Positions 12,731 through 17,010 of a stretch of 64,000 nt of DNA are shown here, one piece after another; positions within the stretch are counted from its first letter, which is position 1, and the number at the start of each line of letters is the position of its first letter. The stretch comes from Hydrogenophaga sp. SL48 (GTDB taxonomy: Bacteria; Pseudomonadota; Gammaproteobacteria; Burkholderiales; Burkholderiaceae_C): NCBI RefSeq assembly GCF_021729865.1, contig NZ_CP063400.1, forward strand, positions 4,154,001 to 4,218,000, given 5' to 3'. The notes below the pieces were generated by a model. It did no database searches and was not told the DNA's origin. It saw nothing but the letters and a program-made list of their open reading frames with translations. The position numbers and the translations under genes were made by a program.

Positions 12731-13657
12731 CTACGCGCGCGACGCCCTGCGCCGGCGCGGCGGGCCGGTCTGCATCTCGGCGCAGAGGTTGTAGAACTCC
12801 TGCGCCGCCGGCGCGAGCACGGTGGATCGCCGCTTGATCAGGCCCACCATGCGTTTGACCACCGGGTCCACCAGCGGCACGCTGACCAGCAGCGGGTGGT
12901 CCTTCGCCGGCATGGCCATCGAGGGCACCACCGCCACGCCCAGCCCGGCTTCCACCAGACCGATCATGGTGGTGCCGTGCCGCGTTTCGTACAGGCTCTG
13001 CGGCTGACCAACCATGCCGGCCAGGGCCTGGTCGAGCAGCAGGCGGTTGCCCGACACCTTGTCGGCCGCGATGTAGTCGTGCTGCGCGAGCTCGGCCCAG
13101 CGCACCTGGCGCTTCTTGGCCAGCGGGTGGTCGCGCCGGCAGGCCGCGACGAACTGCTCTTCCTTCAGCGGCTTGAACTCCACGTCGGCCTCCTGCGAGC
13201 CGACAAAATTGAGACCGAAATCGGCCTCGCCGCGCGCCACCGCCAGCAGCACCGCGTTGGCGCTCTCGTCGATGATCTTGATGCGAACGCGCGGGTAGCG
13301 CTCGTGGTAACGCGCGATCACACTGGAGAGAAAGTAGTTCACCGCCGAGGGCACGGCCGCGATGGTGACCTCGCCCATGCGCGTGGCCGCCACGCCGCGG
13401 ATGCCGAGCAGCGTGGTGTCCAGCGCATCGAGGATCTGGCGCAGCTGACGGTCGAAATCGCGCCCCACCACCGTCAGGCTGACGCGGCGCGTGCTGCGCT
13501 CCAGCAGCCGCACGCCCAGCGCCTGCTCCAGCTTGTCGATGCGCCGGCTGAAGGCGGGCTGCGAGATGTGCACCGACTCGGCGGCCTTGCGGAAATTGCC
13601 TAGTTCGGCCACGGCACGGAAGGCGAACAGGTCGTTGAGATCGAAGTGTGCGGACAT
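12731..13657 (-). CDS. LysR family transcriptional regulator
   Basis: A 308-residue LysR-type regulator. The N-terminal winged helix reads LNDLFAFRAVAELGNFRKAAESVHISQPAFSRRIDKLE. The rest is the periplasmic-binding-like effector domain (GEVTIAAVPSAVNYFLSSVIARYHERYP). It is divergent from the Bug and isomerase-Bug fusion genes and almost surely controls them in response to a carboxylate. A 25-base dyad with the T-N11-A form of LysR sites lies in the shared intergenic region. The ATG at 13657 gives the normal family N-terminus. Confidence 0.9.
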   Translation of the reverse strand: MSAHFDLNDLFAFRAVAELGNFRKAAESVHISQPAFSRRIDKLEQALGVRLLERSTRRVSLTVVGRDFDRQLRQILDALDTTLLGIRGVAATRMGEVTIAAVPSAVNYFLSSVIARYHERYPRVRIKIIDESANAVLLAVARGEADFGLNFVGSQEADVEFKPLKEEQFVAACRRDHPLAKKRQVRWAELAQHDYIAADKVSGNRLLLDQALAGMVGQPQSLYETRHGTTMIGLVEAGLGVAVVPSMAMPAKDHPLLVSVPLVDPVVKRMVGLIKRRSTVLAPAAQEFYNLCAEMQTGPPRRRRASRA

Positions 13658-13707: not shown

Positions 13708-13783
13708 GATCCCAACAATGCAATTCACAGATGCCTTCGATCGCCGGATGATTCACCCACTTTCAACCGACAGGAGACAAACC

Positions 13784-14743
13784 ATGAACATCACACGGAC
13801 CGCGATCACCCTCGCCCTGACCGCCGCCTTCGCCCCCGCCGCCATGGCCTTCCCCACCAAGACCATCACCATCGTCGTGCCCACCGCCGCCGGTGGCGGC
13901 AACGACCTGATGGCGCGCACCATCGCGCAGAAGCTGGGCACGCTGCTGGGCCAGAGCGTGATCGTGGAGAACAAGGCCGGCGCCAACGGCGCGCTGGCCA
14001 GCGAGGCCGTGGCGCGCGCCGCGCCCGATGGCCACACGCTGATGCTGGGCTACATCGCCACCCACGCCATGAACCCCGCGCTGCAGAAGCTGCGCTACGA
14101 CCCGGTGACCGACTTCGAACCCGTGGGCCTGGTGGGCTACTCGGGCACGCTCCTGGTGGCGAACGGCGCCACGCCGGTGAAGGACGTGAAGGACCTCGTG
14201 GCCCAGCTCAAGGCCAAGCCCGAGCGTTACGTGTACGCCACCGCCGGCAACGGCACGGCGCCGCACTTCGCGGGCGAGCTGTTCAAGATGAACGCGGGCG
14301 TGGAGATGATCAGCGTGCCCTACAAGGGCGCGGCGCCGGCGGTGAACGACACCATCGGCGGCCAGACGCAGTTCATGTTCCCCAGCCTGTTCACCGCGCT
14401 GCCGCACGTCAAGGGCGGCAAGCTCAAGGCCCTGGCCATCGCCGGCCCCAAGCGCTCGCCGCTGCTGCCCGACGTGCCCACCATGAAGGAGGCCGGTGTG
14501 GACGGCGTCGAGGTGCAGCAGTGGTACGCGATCTTCGCGCCGGGCAAGACGCCCAAGGACGTGGTGACCAAGATCAACCAGGCGCTCAACACCGTGCTGA
14601 CCGACAAGGAGGTGGTCAAGCGCATGGAGGACCACGGCGCCGACGTGGAGACCAGCACGCCCGAGCAACTCGGCGGACTCGTCAGGAGCGAGCTGGCGAA
14701 GTGGAAGGCCGTGGTGGTGAAGGCCAAGCTGACGGCAGAGTGA
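13784..14743 (+). CDS. Bug family tripartite tricarboxylate transporter substrate-binding protein
   Basis: A 319-residue periplasmic binding protein. The signal peptide (MNITRTAITLALTAAFAPAAMA) ends at residue 22. The mature part starts FPTKTITIVVPTAAGGGNDLMART, which includes the ligand-binding loop typical of Bug proteins. Other family blocks are ENKAGANGALASE and ALQKLRYDPVTDFEPVGLVG. AGGAGA precedes the ATG at 13784. Bug proteins bind di- or tricarboxylates; no TctA/TctB membrane genes are nearby, which is common for this family. It is very similar to the C-terminal domain of the next gene, suggesting a tandem duplication. Confidence 0.93.
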   Translation: MNITRTAITLALTAAFAPAAMAFPTKTITIVVPTAAGGGNDLMARTIAQKLGTLLGQSVIVENKAGANGALASEAVARAAPDGHTLMLGYIATHAMNPALQKLRYDPVTDFEPVGLVGYSGTLLVANGATPVKDVKDLVAQLKAKPERYVYATAGNGTAPHFAGELFKMNAGVEMISVPYKGAAPAVNDTIGGQTQFMFPSLFTALPHVKGGKLKALAIAGPKRSPLLPDVPTMKEAGVDGVEVQQWYAIFAPGKTPKDVVTKINQALNTVLTDKEVVKRMEDHGADVETSTPEQLGGLVRSELAKWKAVVVKAKLTAE

Positions 14744-14751
14744 ACTGAATA

Positions 14752-14840
14752 CCCCCCGCGCCGCTTCGGATCCCCCCCCAAGGGGGGCGGCACTGGCCGT
14801 CTGCCCTGAGCTTGTCGAAGGGCCGCCCGGCGGTGCCCTG
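14752..14840 (+). repeat. 3'-UTR hairpin repeat, copy 3, with a nested REP-like element
   Basis: Starts nine bases after the Bug stop. It has CCCCCCGCGCCGCTTCGG, a CCCCCC-AA-GGGGGG hairpin and a GGCACTGGCCGTC block. Its central hairpin is replaced by a TGCCCTGAGCTTGTCGAAGG segment (14802-14823), a palindromic motif also found at 32423, 55519 and 58563. The end is CCCGGCGGTGCCCTGG, as in copy 1. Confidence 0.75.
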
Positions 14841-14888
14841 GCGAAAGCACGACCGGCTCTGCGCTCCACCCTCACCCTGCACCACGCC

Positions 14889-16925
14889 ATGTCCCTCTCC
14901 ATCCCCTGTGTCCTGATGCGCGCCGGCACCTCGCGCGGCCCCTTCTTCCTGCGCGACTGGCTGCCCGAGGGCGATGAGGCGCGCGACCAGGCGCTGATCG
15001 GCGCCATCGGAGCGTCGGACCCGCTGCAGCTCGACGGCCTGGGCGGCGGCAGCACGCTCAACAGCAAGGTCGCCATCGTCTCGCGCTCCACGGTGCCCGA
15101 CTGCGACCTGGACTACCTGTTCGCCCAGGTCGGCGTCGGTCACCGCTCGGTGGACACGCGGCCCAACTGCGGCAACATGCTCTCGGGCGTGGCGCCGTTC
15201 GCCATCGAGCAGGGGCTGATCACCGCGCAGGACGGCACCACCACGGTGCGCATCCACAACGTGAACACCGGCTCGCAGATCGAGGTCACGGTGTGCACGC
15301 CCGGCGGCAAGGTCAGCTACGAGGGCGACGCGCGCATCGACGGCGTGGCCGGCACGGCGGCGCCCATCCTGCTGAACTTCCTCGACGCCTGGGGCGCGGT
15401 CACCGGCCAGGTGTTCCCCACCGGCCAGCGCATCGACCTCATCGACGGGCTGGAGGTGACCTGCATCGACGCGGCCATGCCGCTGATGGTGCTGCGCGCC
15501 ATCGACCTCGGCCTCACGGGCCGCGAGAGGCCGGCCGAGCTGGACGCCAACACCGCCCTGCTCGCGCGCATCGAGGCGCTGCGGCTGGAGGCCGGCCGGC
15601 GCATGGGCCTGGGCGATGTGTCGGGCAGCGTGATCCCCAAGCCGGTGCTGGTGAGCGCGGGCGACACGCTGGACAGCATCACCTCGCGCTACTTCACGCC
15701 GCACAAGTGCCACGCTTCACACGCGGTCACCGGCGCCATCGGCGTGGCCACGGCCTTCGCCCTGCCCGGCACGGTGGCCAGCGGCATCGCGCGCCCGGCC
15801 GGACGCCATGCGCTGGTGGTGCTGCACCCGGCCGGCCAGATCGATGTGGCGGTGGACCTGGAGGGCGAGGGCGAGCGCATCGAGATCAAGAGCGCCGCGC
15901 TGGTGCGCACCGCGCGCAAGATCATGCAGGGCATGCTGCACCTGCCGGGCTACGTGTTCCCGCCCGCTGCGTCCGCCGAGGCCAGCACGACCACGCAGCA
16001 GACCCCAGCGGTGCGCAGCTTCCCGCAGCGCGAGCTGCACGTCATCGTGCCCACCAGCGCGGGCGGCGGCAACGACACCATGGCGCGCACGCTCACGCGC
16101 AAGCTCGGGCCGCTGCTGGGCCAGCCGCTGGTGGTGGACAACCGCGCGGGCGCCAACGGTAGCATCGCCAGCGAGTACGTGGCCGCCGCCGACGCCGACG
16201 GTCACACCCTGCTGTTCGGCTACATCGCCACGCACGGCATCAACCCCGCGCTGCAGAAGCTGCGCTACGACCCGGTGACCGACTTCTCGCCCATCGGTCT
16301 GATCGGCTATTCACCCACGCTGCTGGTGGTGCCGGCCGCCCTGCCGGTGAACAGCGTGGCGGAGCTGGTGCGCCTGCTGCGCGACGCGCCCACGCCGCTG
16401 GCCTACGCCTCGGCCGGCGAGGGCACGGTGCCGCATTTCGCGGCCGAGCTGTTCCAGCTGCAGACCGGCACGCGGCTCAAGCGCGTGGACTTCGCGGGCG
16501 CGGCGCCGGCGATTGCCGACGTGGCCAACGGCCTGGTGCAGCTCATGTTCCCCAGCCTGTTCACCGCGCAACCGTACCTGCGCAGCGGGCGACTGAAGGC
16601 CTTGGCGGTGGCCGGCAATGAGCGCCTGCCGGCCTGGCCCGAGGTGCCGACGCTGATGGAGGCGGGTGTGCCCGGTGTGTCGCTCACGCAGTGGTACGCG
16701 CTGTTCGCGCCGGCCAGGACGCCGCACGCGGTGACGCGCCAGCTGAACACCGCCCTCAACACGGTGTTGAAGGACCCGGACGTGGTGGCGCGCATGCAGG
16801 CCGATGGCGCACAGGTGCAGGCCTCGACCCCGGGTGAGCTGCACGACCTGCTGCTGGCGGAGGGTGAGCGCTGGCAATCGGTGGTGCGTCAGACGGGTTT
16901 GCGCTTGGACATGGTGGTGGAATAG
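14889..16925 (+). CDS. PrpF-family isomerase / 4-oxalomesaconate tautomerase fused to a Bug solute-binding domain
   Basis: A 678-residue two-domain protein. Residues 1-356 are a PrpF/GalD-type isomerase (CVLMRAGTSRGPFFL, DGLGGGSTLNSKVAIV, TRPNCGNMLSGVAPFAIE, HKCHASHAVTGAIGVATAF), a diaminopimelate-epimerase-like fold that moves double bonds in aconitate-type acids. A 24-residue Ala/Thr/Gln-rich linker follows. Residues 381-678 are a complete Bug domain (ELHVIVPTSAGGGNDTMART, ALQKLRYDPVTDFSPIGLIG) closely matching the separate Bug protein upstream. There is no N-terminal signal peptide, so the binding domain should stay in the cytoplasm. The frame is continuous with no stop. It may couple ligand binding to catalysis, or be a recent duplication fused by deletion. 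Confidence 0.88.
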   Translation: MSLSIPCVLMRAGTSRGPFFLRDWLPEGDEARDQALIGAIGASDPLQLDGLGGGSTLNSKVAIVSRSTVPDCDLDYLFAQVGVGHRSVDTRPNCGNMLSGVAPFAIEQGLITAQDGTTTVRIHNVNTGSQIEVTVCTPGGKVSYEGDARIDGVAGTAAPILLNFLDAWGAVTGQVFPTGQRIDLIDGLEVTCIDAAMPLMVLRAIDLGLTGRERPAELDANTALLARIEALRLEAGRRMGLGDVSGSVIPKPVLVSAGDTLDSITSRYFTPHKCHASHAVTGAIGVATAFALPGTVASGIARPAGRHALVVLHPAGQIDVAVDLEGEGERIEIKSAALVRTARKIMQGMLHLPGYVFPPAASAEASTTTQQTPAVRSFPQRELHVIVPTSAGGGNDTMARTLTRKLGPLLGQPLVVDNRAGANGSIASEYVAAADADGHTLLFGYIATHGINPALQKLRYDPVTDFSPIGLIGYSPTLLVVPAALPVNSVAELVRLLRDAPTPLAYASAGEGTVPHFAAELFQLQTGTRLKRVDFAGAAPAIADVANGLVQLMFPSLFTAQPYLRSGRLKALAVAGNERLPAWPEVPTLMEAGVPGVSLTQWYALFAPARTPHAVTRQLNTALNTVLKDPDVVARMQADGAQVQASTPGELHDLLLAEGERWQSVVRQTGLRLDMVVE

Positions 16926-16926
16926 G

Positions 16927-17010
16927 ACCCCCCTGCGCCGCCTGCGGCGTCACCCCCCAAGGGGGCGATGCGAGTGGCCCGGCGAAGCCGGTTCCACCGC
17001 ATCCTGGGTG
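16927..17010 (+). repeat. 3'-UTR hairpin repeat, copy 4
   Basis: Starts right after the stop of the fusion gene. It has a GCGCCGCCTGCGGCG hairpin, CCCCCC-AA-GGGGG, then a block ending in CCACCGCATCCTGGGT. The stretch 16961-17009 is identical over 49 bases to 42355-42403 behind the DUF2164 gene. Confidence 0.82.

Follow-up and report, generated by a model that had tools for sequence, protein, structure and literature searches.

A PrpF-family isomerase fused to a Bug-type solute-binding domain, a conserved architecture of Burkholderiales with a predicted role in aconitate metabolism

Introduction

What is a solute-binding protein doing when it is joined to a metabolic enzyme and lacks an export signal? 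Solute-binding proteins are described as extracytosolic in the accessible text of PMC9602780. A stretch of 64,000 nucleotides from Hydrogenophaga sp. SL48 (contig NZ_CP063400.1, positions 4,154,001 to 4,218,000; hereafter the window) carries a gene in which an isomerase of the PrpF family runs in frame into a Bug/TctC-type solute-binding domain. A separate Bug gene lies just upstream, and a preliminary description of the locus had read the arrangement as a likely duplication of that gene followed by its fusion to an isomerase of the PrpF/GalD type. Here we ask whether the fusion is genuine and shared, how it came about, and which reaction and role may be assigned to the combined protein.

Results

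The two halves lie in one continuous frame, as the preliminary description had stated, and Pfam searches recognized both domains in the 678-residue product: the PF04303 match spans profile positions 3–371 of 371 (cut-off 27), whereas PF03401 covers residues 399–671 with 197 bits, which, together with the type II fold recovered by Foldseek, bears out a complete Bug domain. The reported lack of a signal peptide also held, signal peptides being judged throughout by hydropathy and reading by eye: the highest mean Kyte-Doolittle value of any 15-residue stretch at the junction is 0.76, none is apparent by eye at the N-terminus, and an internal start codon with a Shine-Dalgarno site was looked for at the junction and not found. 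A signal anchor in the linker was likewise ruled out by hydropathy and start-site scan. That the frame is an artefact of assembly is very unlikely, since the 5.43 Mb genome is closed in a single contig, numerous independent genomes have this frame open too, and the Bug domain is under purifying selection; the closed genome, the database matches with both domains, and that selection also ruled out a chance frame. In a search of 5.8 billion proteins, all 120 of the 120 listed matches, query included, contained both Pfam domains, and the fusion is present in at least 47 of the 399 genomes sampled from the family (45 from the genome search, plus G058 and G104, the last with a partial locus, L045), so that the architecture is not peculiar to this strain. 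Named carriers include Hydrogenophaga, Rhodoferax, Polaromonas, Variovorax, Pseudorhodoferax, Ramlibacter, Limnohabitans, Cupriavidus, Piscinibacter, Ideonella, Roseateles, Sphaerotilus, Rhizobacter, and Massilia. The PrpF-Bug fusion is an old, conserved architecture of Burkholderiales. A literature search on both family names and related topics, which left subscription papers mostly uncovered and hence absence unproven, found no PrpF-Bug fusion named.

Both halves of the fused protein are under purifying selection. The median ratio of nonsynonymous to synonymous substitution rates (dN/dS) was 0.088 for the PrpF domain (74 pairs), 0.12 for the fused Bug domain (74 pairs), and 0.133 for separate Bug proteins (48 pairs), the pairs being near relatives and not independent. 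In addition, 59 positions are kept at 95% or more both among class I (47 rows) and among separate or class II Bugs (51 rows) (classes as defined below). The ligand-pincer loop of the fused domain reads PT[SRA][AS]GGGND in 25/25 class I rows; set against the Bug family motif P-F-X-A-G-G-X-X-D given in the accessible text of PMC5812351, the window's loop keeps P, A, G, G, and D and has Thr in place of Phe. This Thr occurs throughout the present Bug clade, fused or separate, and Phe in 11 of 13 other Bug proteins compared. The AlphaFold model of the fusion has a mean predicted local distance difference test (pLDDT) score of 82.3, falling below 50 at residues 353–376. Foldseek matched its isomerase half to YbhH, LigU, Mii, and PrpF, including a PrpF structure with bound trans-aconitate (2pw0), and its Bug half to the AdpC-type 5oei, BugE, MatC, and TphC; the solved structures nearest to the isomerase domain are YbhH (6otv) and LigU (6p3j). 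Two LigU positions named in structure titles, K66M (6p3h) and C100S (6p3k), correspond to invariant residues of the fusions (Table 1), in an alignment from which the locus L149 was omitted.

The fusions come in two main types, a distinction that is new. Class I, represented by 17 genomes including that of the window, has no signal peptide and carries a Bug domain 56–61% identical to the window's separate Bug; class II, represented by 29 genomes, carries one that is 69–82% identical. In class II, no stop codon ends the PrpF gene, and its open frame passes a Shine-Dalgarno site, a start codon, and a sequence resembling a signal peptide before it reaches Bug; the embedded start is ATG in 26 cases and GTG in 3, and the ribosome site is GGAGAC (for example, cccGAAGGAGACAAACCCATGAAGCGA in Piscinibacter, L161). 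The start region of the window's separate Bug reads AGGAGACAAACCATG, and the unfused relative L039 has a similar ribosome site placed after a TAA stop. The glycine codon within the class II ribosome site is GGA in 29/29 cases, against 72 of the 1973 glycine codons at other places in these frames; the site is therefore under constraint as a ribosome site, and judging from these signals, the class II Bug is most likely produced as a separate protein as well. Hydropathy and the start-site scan found neither a hydrophobic signal stretch nor a Shine-Dalgarno site with a start codon in any of the 17 class I genomes, and because the signal peptide is missing, the class I Bug domain is probably cytoplasmic. 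The split is the same whether classes are set by the identity of the Bug domain to the separate Bug or, for class I, by identity plus hydropathy, the hydropathy maximum being at lowest 1.43 in class II and at highest 0.87 in class I; one of the 47 genomes, G116, shows no signal peptide by eye and was left unclassed. Among the database proteins, the highest junction hydropathy maximum was 1.27 in 116 of 120, the other 4 being missed by the loop pattern. A separate Bug of the same type was listed for 15/17 class I and 0/29 class II genomes, the class II count covering two scored candidates per genome among matches listed down to near 256 bits; the one second match listed for class II, in G336, is 42% identical. 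Of the non-redundant separate Bugs next to class I fusions, 47/47 begin with a signal-peptide-like N-terminus (3 further ones were missed by the pattern), and 16/17 of the separate Bugs beside unfused PrpF genes pass the same limit.

Rooted trees were built for each domain, with support given as bootstrap/SH-like approximate likelihood ratio test; near-identical rows were removed before trees and context counts, and class I was thinned at random for both trees. In the PrpF tree, the earliest branches comprise most of the unfused genes, the class II rows follow as a grade, and 18/18 class I rows form one clade (100/99); in the Bug tree, 25/25 class I rows form one clade (100/96) within a clade of class II rows, to which a few separate Bugs also belong. 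Because class I is nested in class II in both trees, and given the distribution of separate Bugs, the stop codon was likely lost first with the signal peptide kept, and the signal peptide lost later, in genomes with a second secreted Bug. Three rows without a signal peptide, designated class III (L146, L150, and L153), stand beside class I in the PrpF tree, together with two class II rows; in the Bug tree, L153 adjoins class I, and L146 and L150 group with the class II row L166. The window's separate Bug falls among class II Bugs and is not the sister of the fused domain, and most class I genomes in the tree have other, earlier-branching separate Bugs. The fusion proposed in the preliminary description stands, but a recent local duplication of the upstream Bug is ruled out by the rooted Bug tree. 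The grouping of the Hydrogenophaga separate Bug with class II Bugs of other genera suggests transfer or replacement. L039, L041, and L042, which fall within the class II grade or close to it, encode PrpF and Bug in two frames; these look like returns to separate genes, with a local frame break as the alternative for L041, but may also reflect sequence errors.

Membership of the PrpF family was upheld by these searches, and the more specific reaction was approached through family models and gene context. The 2-methylaconitate isomerase PrpF was rejected, as TIGR02334 gave 194.8, far below its cut-off of 440.55. Genes of protocatechuate 4,5-cleavage were found beside 0/111 non-redundant loci of the fusion clade and its unfused sisters, whereas they adjoin 15/15 fetched loci (of 23 listed matches at 46–51% identity) of another PrpF clade of the same bacterial family (44–51% identical, support 100/100), with LigA or LigB in 12 and LigK and LigJ only in 3. 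The database name "4-oxalomesaconate tautomerase" is therefore probably wrong for the present clade. A decarboxylase-like lyase of the 3-carboxymuconate cycloisomerase/adenylosuccinate-lyase type lies beside 61/93 fused loci, and 59/93 have one or more of the genes for a MaoC-type hydratase, a type III coenzyme A (CoA)-transferase, and a RipC-like lyase (best model, itaconate-degradation RipC, below cut-off). TcuA or TcuB, representatives of which score above model cut-offs, lie beside 23/93 fused and 10/18 unfused loci; the context stretches vary in length, and some end with the contig. At the genome level, the decarboxylase-like lyase is present at 69% identity or more in 40/47 fused and 1/18 unfused genomes. 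In L061:7500-12750, L072, L167, and other relatives, a CMLE-like lyase, a MaoC hydratase, a type III CoA-transferase, and a citrate-lyase-like enzyme occur together, often with DctA, Bug, and PrpF, a set that looks like the breakdown counterpart of the fungal path from trans-aconitate to itaconate. In Ustilago, the PrpF protein Adi1 and the CMLE-like Tad1 lead from cis-aconitate through trans-aconitate to itaconate (accessible text of PMC4720413), and TarA and TbrA of Bacillus are bacterial aconitate isomerases of the PrpF family (accessible text of PMC11495376). Because of the gene context and these precedents, the enzyme is quite likely to be an aconitate isomerase, the assignment we predict.

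The features of the locus are collected in Table 1. The separate Bug is 55% identical to the fused Bug domain, and the spacer between the upstream Bug gene and the fusion is 145 bases in the window versus 1 base in L167. One promoter-like site lies between the LysR and Bug genes at 13724-13752 of the window (0.1 expected from shuffles of the 4 kb region). No clear Shine-Dalgarno site is seen by eye upstream of the fusion ATG (14869-14888), and the fusion gene is flanked by similar C-/G-rich repeat-like stretches, also noted by eye, at 14746-14840 and 16926-16990.

Table 1. Features of the fusion locus, in window positions
Feature	Position	Strand	Remarks
PrpF-family isomerase and Bug/TctC fusion gene	14889..16925	+	ATG to TAG, 678 amino acids, without internal stop
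PrpF-family isomerase domain, residues 4-353	14898..15947	+	PF04303, 365 bits
Lys60	15066..15068	+	same in all 76 aligned fusions; corresponds to LigU Lys66 by constant match offset (4 to 10)
Cys94	15168..15170	+	same in all 76 aligned fusions; corresponds to LigU Cys100 by offset
Linker, about residues 357-378 (about 22 residues)	15957..16022	+	hydrophilic, low model confidence
Complete Bug/TctC type II binding-protein domain, about residues 382-672	16032..16904	+	PF03401; Foldseek template modelling (TM) score 0.92 normalised by target 5oei
Ligand-pincer loop motif PTSAGGGND, residues 388-396	16050..16076	+	PT..GG.ND in every such row of the Bug set (class I, 25; class II, 14; class III, 3)
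Separate Bug gene, 319 amino acids	13784..14743	+	signal-peptide-like N-terminus, about residues 1-22
AGGAGACAAACC-ATG, Shine-Dalgarno site and start of separate Bug gene	13772..13786	+	like motif embedded in relatives' class II fusions
LysR-type regulator, divergent	12731..13657	-	conserved beside relatives' fusions (neighbour cluster c2: 32 open reading frames in 41 stretches)

Discussion

On balance, and with moderate confidence, we favour the explanation that the fusion is a cytosolic aconitate isomerase of the YbhH-like branch in which a formerly secreted Bug receptor has become a permanent intracellular C-terminal domain. Three living states are seen, in an order backed by the trees: separate genes, loss of the stop codon with the internal ribosome site and signal peptide retained (class II), and loss of the signal peptide (class I), usually with a separate Bug gene elsewhere. 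The substrate would be aconitate, as the context of the relatives suggests, where the partner is either TcuA/TcuB (tricarballylate dehydrogenase) or a lyase of the family of the fungal trans-aconitate decarboxylase, the latter accompanied by the CoA-transferase, hydratase, and lyase of an itaconate-type breakdown. Since the window strain has no such lyase and its TcuA/TcuB are encoded elsewhere, trans-aconitate would there be fed into central metabolism through cis-aconitate. The weakest step is the role of the tethered Bug domain, which may bind the enzyme's tri- or dicarboxylate within the cytosol and serve the enzyme as a flexible module for capturing or sensing it; here, as the preliminary description had conceded for the combined function, we infer. 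With a soluble enzyme joined by a flexible linker to a presumed carboxylate-binding module that has lost its route of export, candidate gains would be local capture of the substrate, holding of trans-aconitate, which is an aconitase inhibitor by the title of a cited work, or ligand-dependent control, and the data do not favour any one of them. A more tentative proposal, doubtful at present, is that class II makes both a full-length isomerase-signal peptide-Bug chain and a secreted Bug alone, placing the isomerase on the inner membrane at the site of receptor export, and that in class I the receptor then became an intracellular domain for sensing or holding the ligand.

A number of observations weigh against the aconitate reading, and several of them favour a 4-oxalomesaconate tautomerase (GalD/LigU/PmdU) of protocatechuate 4,5-cleavage whose Bug domain binds a pathway intermediate, an alternative that we regard as unlikely. 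The tautomerase model NF033377 scores the fusion at 493.5, above its cut-off of 440. The window strain has, at L187:2869-8047 (2.70 Mb), a complete-looking protocatechuate 4,5-cleavage operon of LigC-, LigB-, LigA-, LigI-, LigK-, and LigJ-like genes (LigA identified by profile, the others named by reading their sequences) without a tautomerase of its own, and the fusion is the one PrpF-family match found in this genome, among dozens of Bug matches; the single PrpF protein could thus serve this pathway, or do so as a second activity. A LigA match is also present in 54 of the 65 genomes with a fused or unfused member. Beside the window fusion no pathway gene was found, TcuA/TcuB lying elsewhere in the genome, and the strain has no decarboxylase gene (best protein match, 43 bits); the trans-aconitate decarboxylase cluster was not found in this genome by protein or DNA search, the latter returning only matches to Bug and a few fragments some 60 bases long. 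Moreover, 7/47 fused genomes have no decarboxylase-like match, and at the wider limit of an E value of 1e-80, 4/18 unfused genomes do have one (three at 38–49% identity); Fisher's test of the lyase in fused versus unfused genomes gives 2.9e-9, or 3.3e-6 with the 4/18 count, with kinship ignored in both. Against the tautomerase, however, stand the contrast in gene context between this clade and the other PrpF clade and the failure of NF033377 to discriminate, as it scores E. coli YbhH just as high (514.9 bits) and places a Rhizobium relative above cut-off as well; the GalD part of the earlier PrpF/GalD assignment is accordingly passed by its model without being singled out, and the context points to aconitate isomerase. 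Seven of the 47 fused genomes, furthermore, have no LigA match (G226, G096, G066, G077, G053, G387, and G104), and 5 of these 7 are at least 90% complete with at most 5% contamination.

Two further points count against the history and the coupling that we favour, in that the placement of class III differs between the PrpF and Bug trees, so that repeated loss of the signal peptide is possible, and that the model shows no confident fixed domain arrangement (predicted TM score, 0.53), leaving coupling unsupported by structure. The latter is also what would be expected if the Bug domain were a passenger acquired by stop-codon loss, with no cytosolic function beyond harmlessness, as are the series of states, which suggests that the fusion began as read-through, and the identity of just 56–61% between the class I Bug domain and the window's separate Bug. 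We nevertheless hold such a passenger to be improbable: the fused Bug domain has a dN/dS like that of separate Bug, shares the 59 strongly kept positions with separate or class II Bugs, and is predicted to adopt the full-length Bug fold, and no PrpF row without Bug lies within the class I clade of the PrpF tree (18 class I rows from genomes picked for the fusion, in which losses are under-sampled). The internal start and signal-peptide-like stretch of the class II relatives could also be taken to mean that two proteins arise, either by cleavage of the full-length chain or by export of the Bug part in the absence of a signal peptide. This is very improbable for class I, whose 17 genomes have neither the signal stretch nor a Shine-Dalgarno site with a start codon; with a slightly wider pattern, 4 of 68 loci do show a Shine-Dalgarno site and start, though no signal peptide.

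The closest known counterpart of the isomerase half is E. coli YbhH, its nearest solved structure (6otv; 392 bits, 55% identity), which likewise has a LysR neighbour and a hydratase gene, ybhJ, downstream, whose product we take to be aconitase-like. It differs in standing alone beside an anion permease, with no Bug in the stretch examined. The E. coli genes ybhD-ybhH-ybhI-ybhJ (L170:3858-10000) encode, in this order, a LysR regulator, the PrpF relative, the anion permease, and the hydratase. By analogy, YbhH may be an aconitate isomerase rather than the 4-oxalomesaconate tautomerase as which it is annotated. LigU and GalD share the fold, 45–46% identity, and, by offset, both catalytic positions, whereas the PrpF proteins encoded next to genes of protocatechuate 4,5-cleavage fall into a clade of their own, LigU itself being outside the tree. 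TarA, TbrA, and Adi1 belong, like the isomerase domain of the window, to the PrpF family; they are likened to the fusion by description and not by sequence, and the accessible text on them mentions no binding-protein domain. The tarRAB genes include an adjacent LysR-type regulator, as at the window locus, but the transporter of that system, TarB, is a major facilitator superfamily protein, unlike Bug (accessible text of PMC11495376), and Adi1 acts with a CMLE-like decarboxylase, as the gene context of the relatives suggests for the fusion (accessible text of PMC4720413). As to the other half, BugD, BugE, AdpC, MatC, and TphC have in common with the fused Bug the complete type II fold (TM score about 0.8–0.9 of the target), and Bug/TctC proteins share the pincer-loop motif except for the Phe; unlike these known proteins, the fused Bug has no export signal and is joined to a cytosolic enzyme.

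These findings suggest that 4-oxalomesaconate tautomerase is the wrong name for a large group of proteins that now bear it, and they point to a bacterial route in which tricarballylate or aconitate would be converted to trans-aconitate and passed into an itaconate-type breakdown, whereas the trans-aconitate/itaconate route is otherwise described, in the accessible literature, as fungal synthesis only. In this group of Burkholderiales, a solute-binding protein is a conserved, apparently cytosolic domain of a metabolic enzyme. Living genomes keep what appears to be the intermediate, an open frame within which a ribosome site and a signal peptide persist, which makes the origin of the fusion directly testable, and should the tentative proposal of a class II enzyme held at the site of receptor export be true, they would preserve a traceable path from a secreted receptor to an enzyme module.

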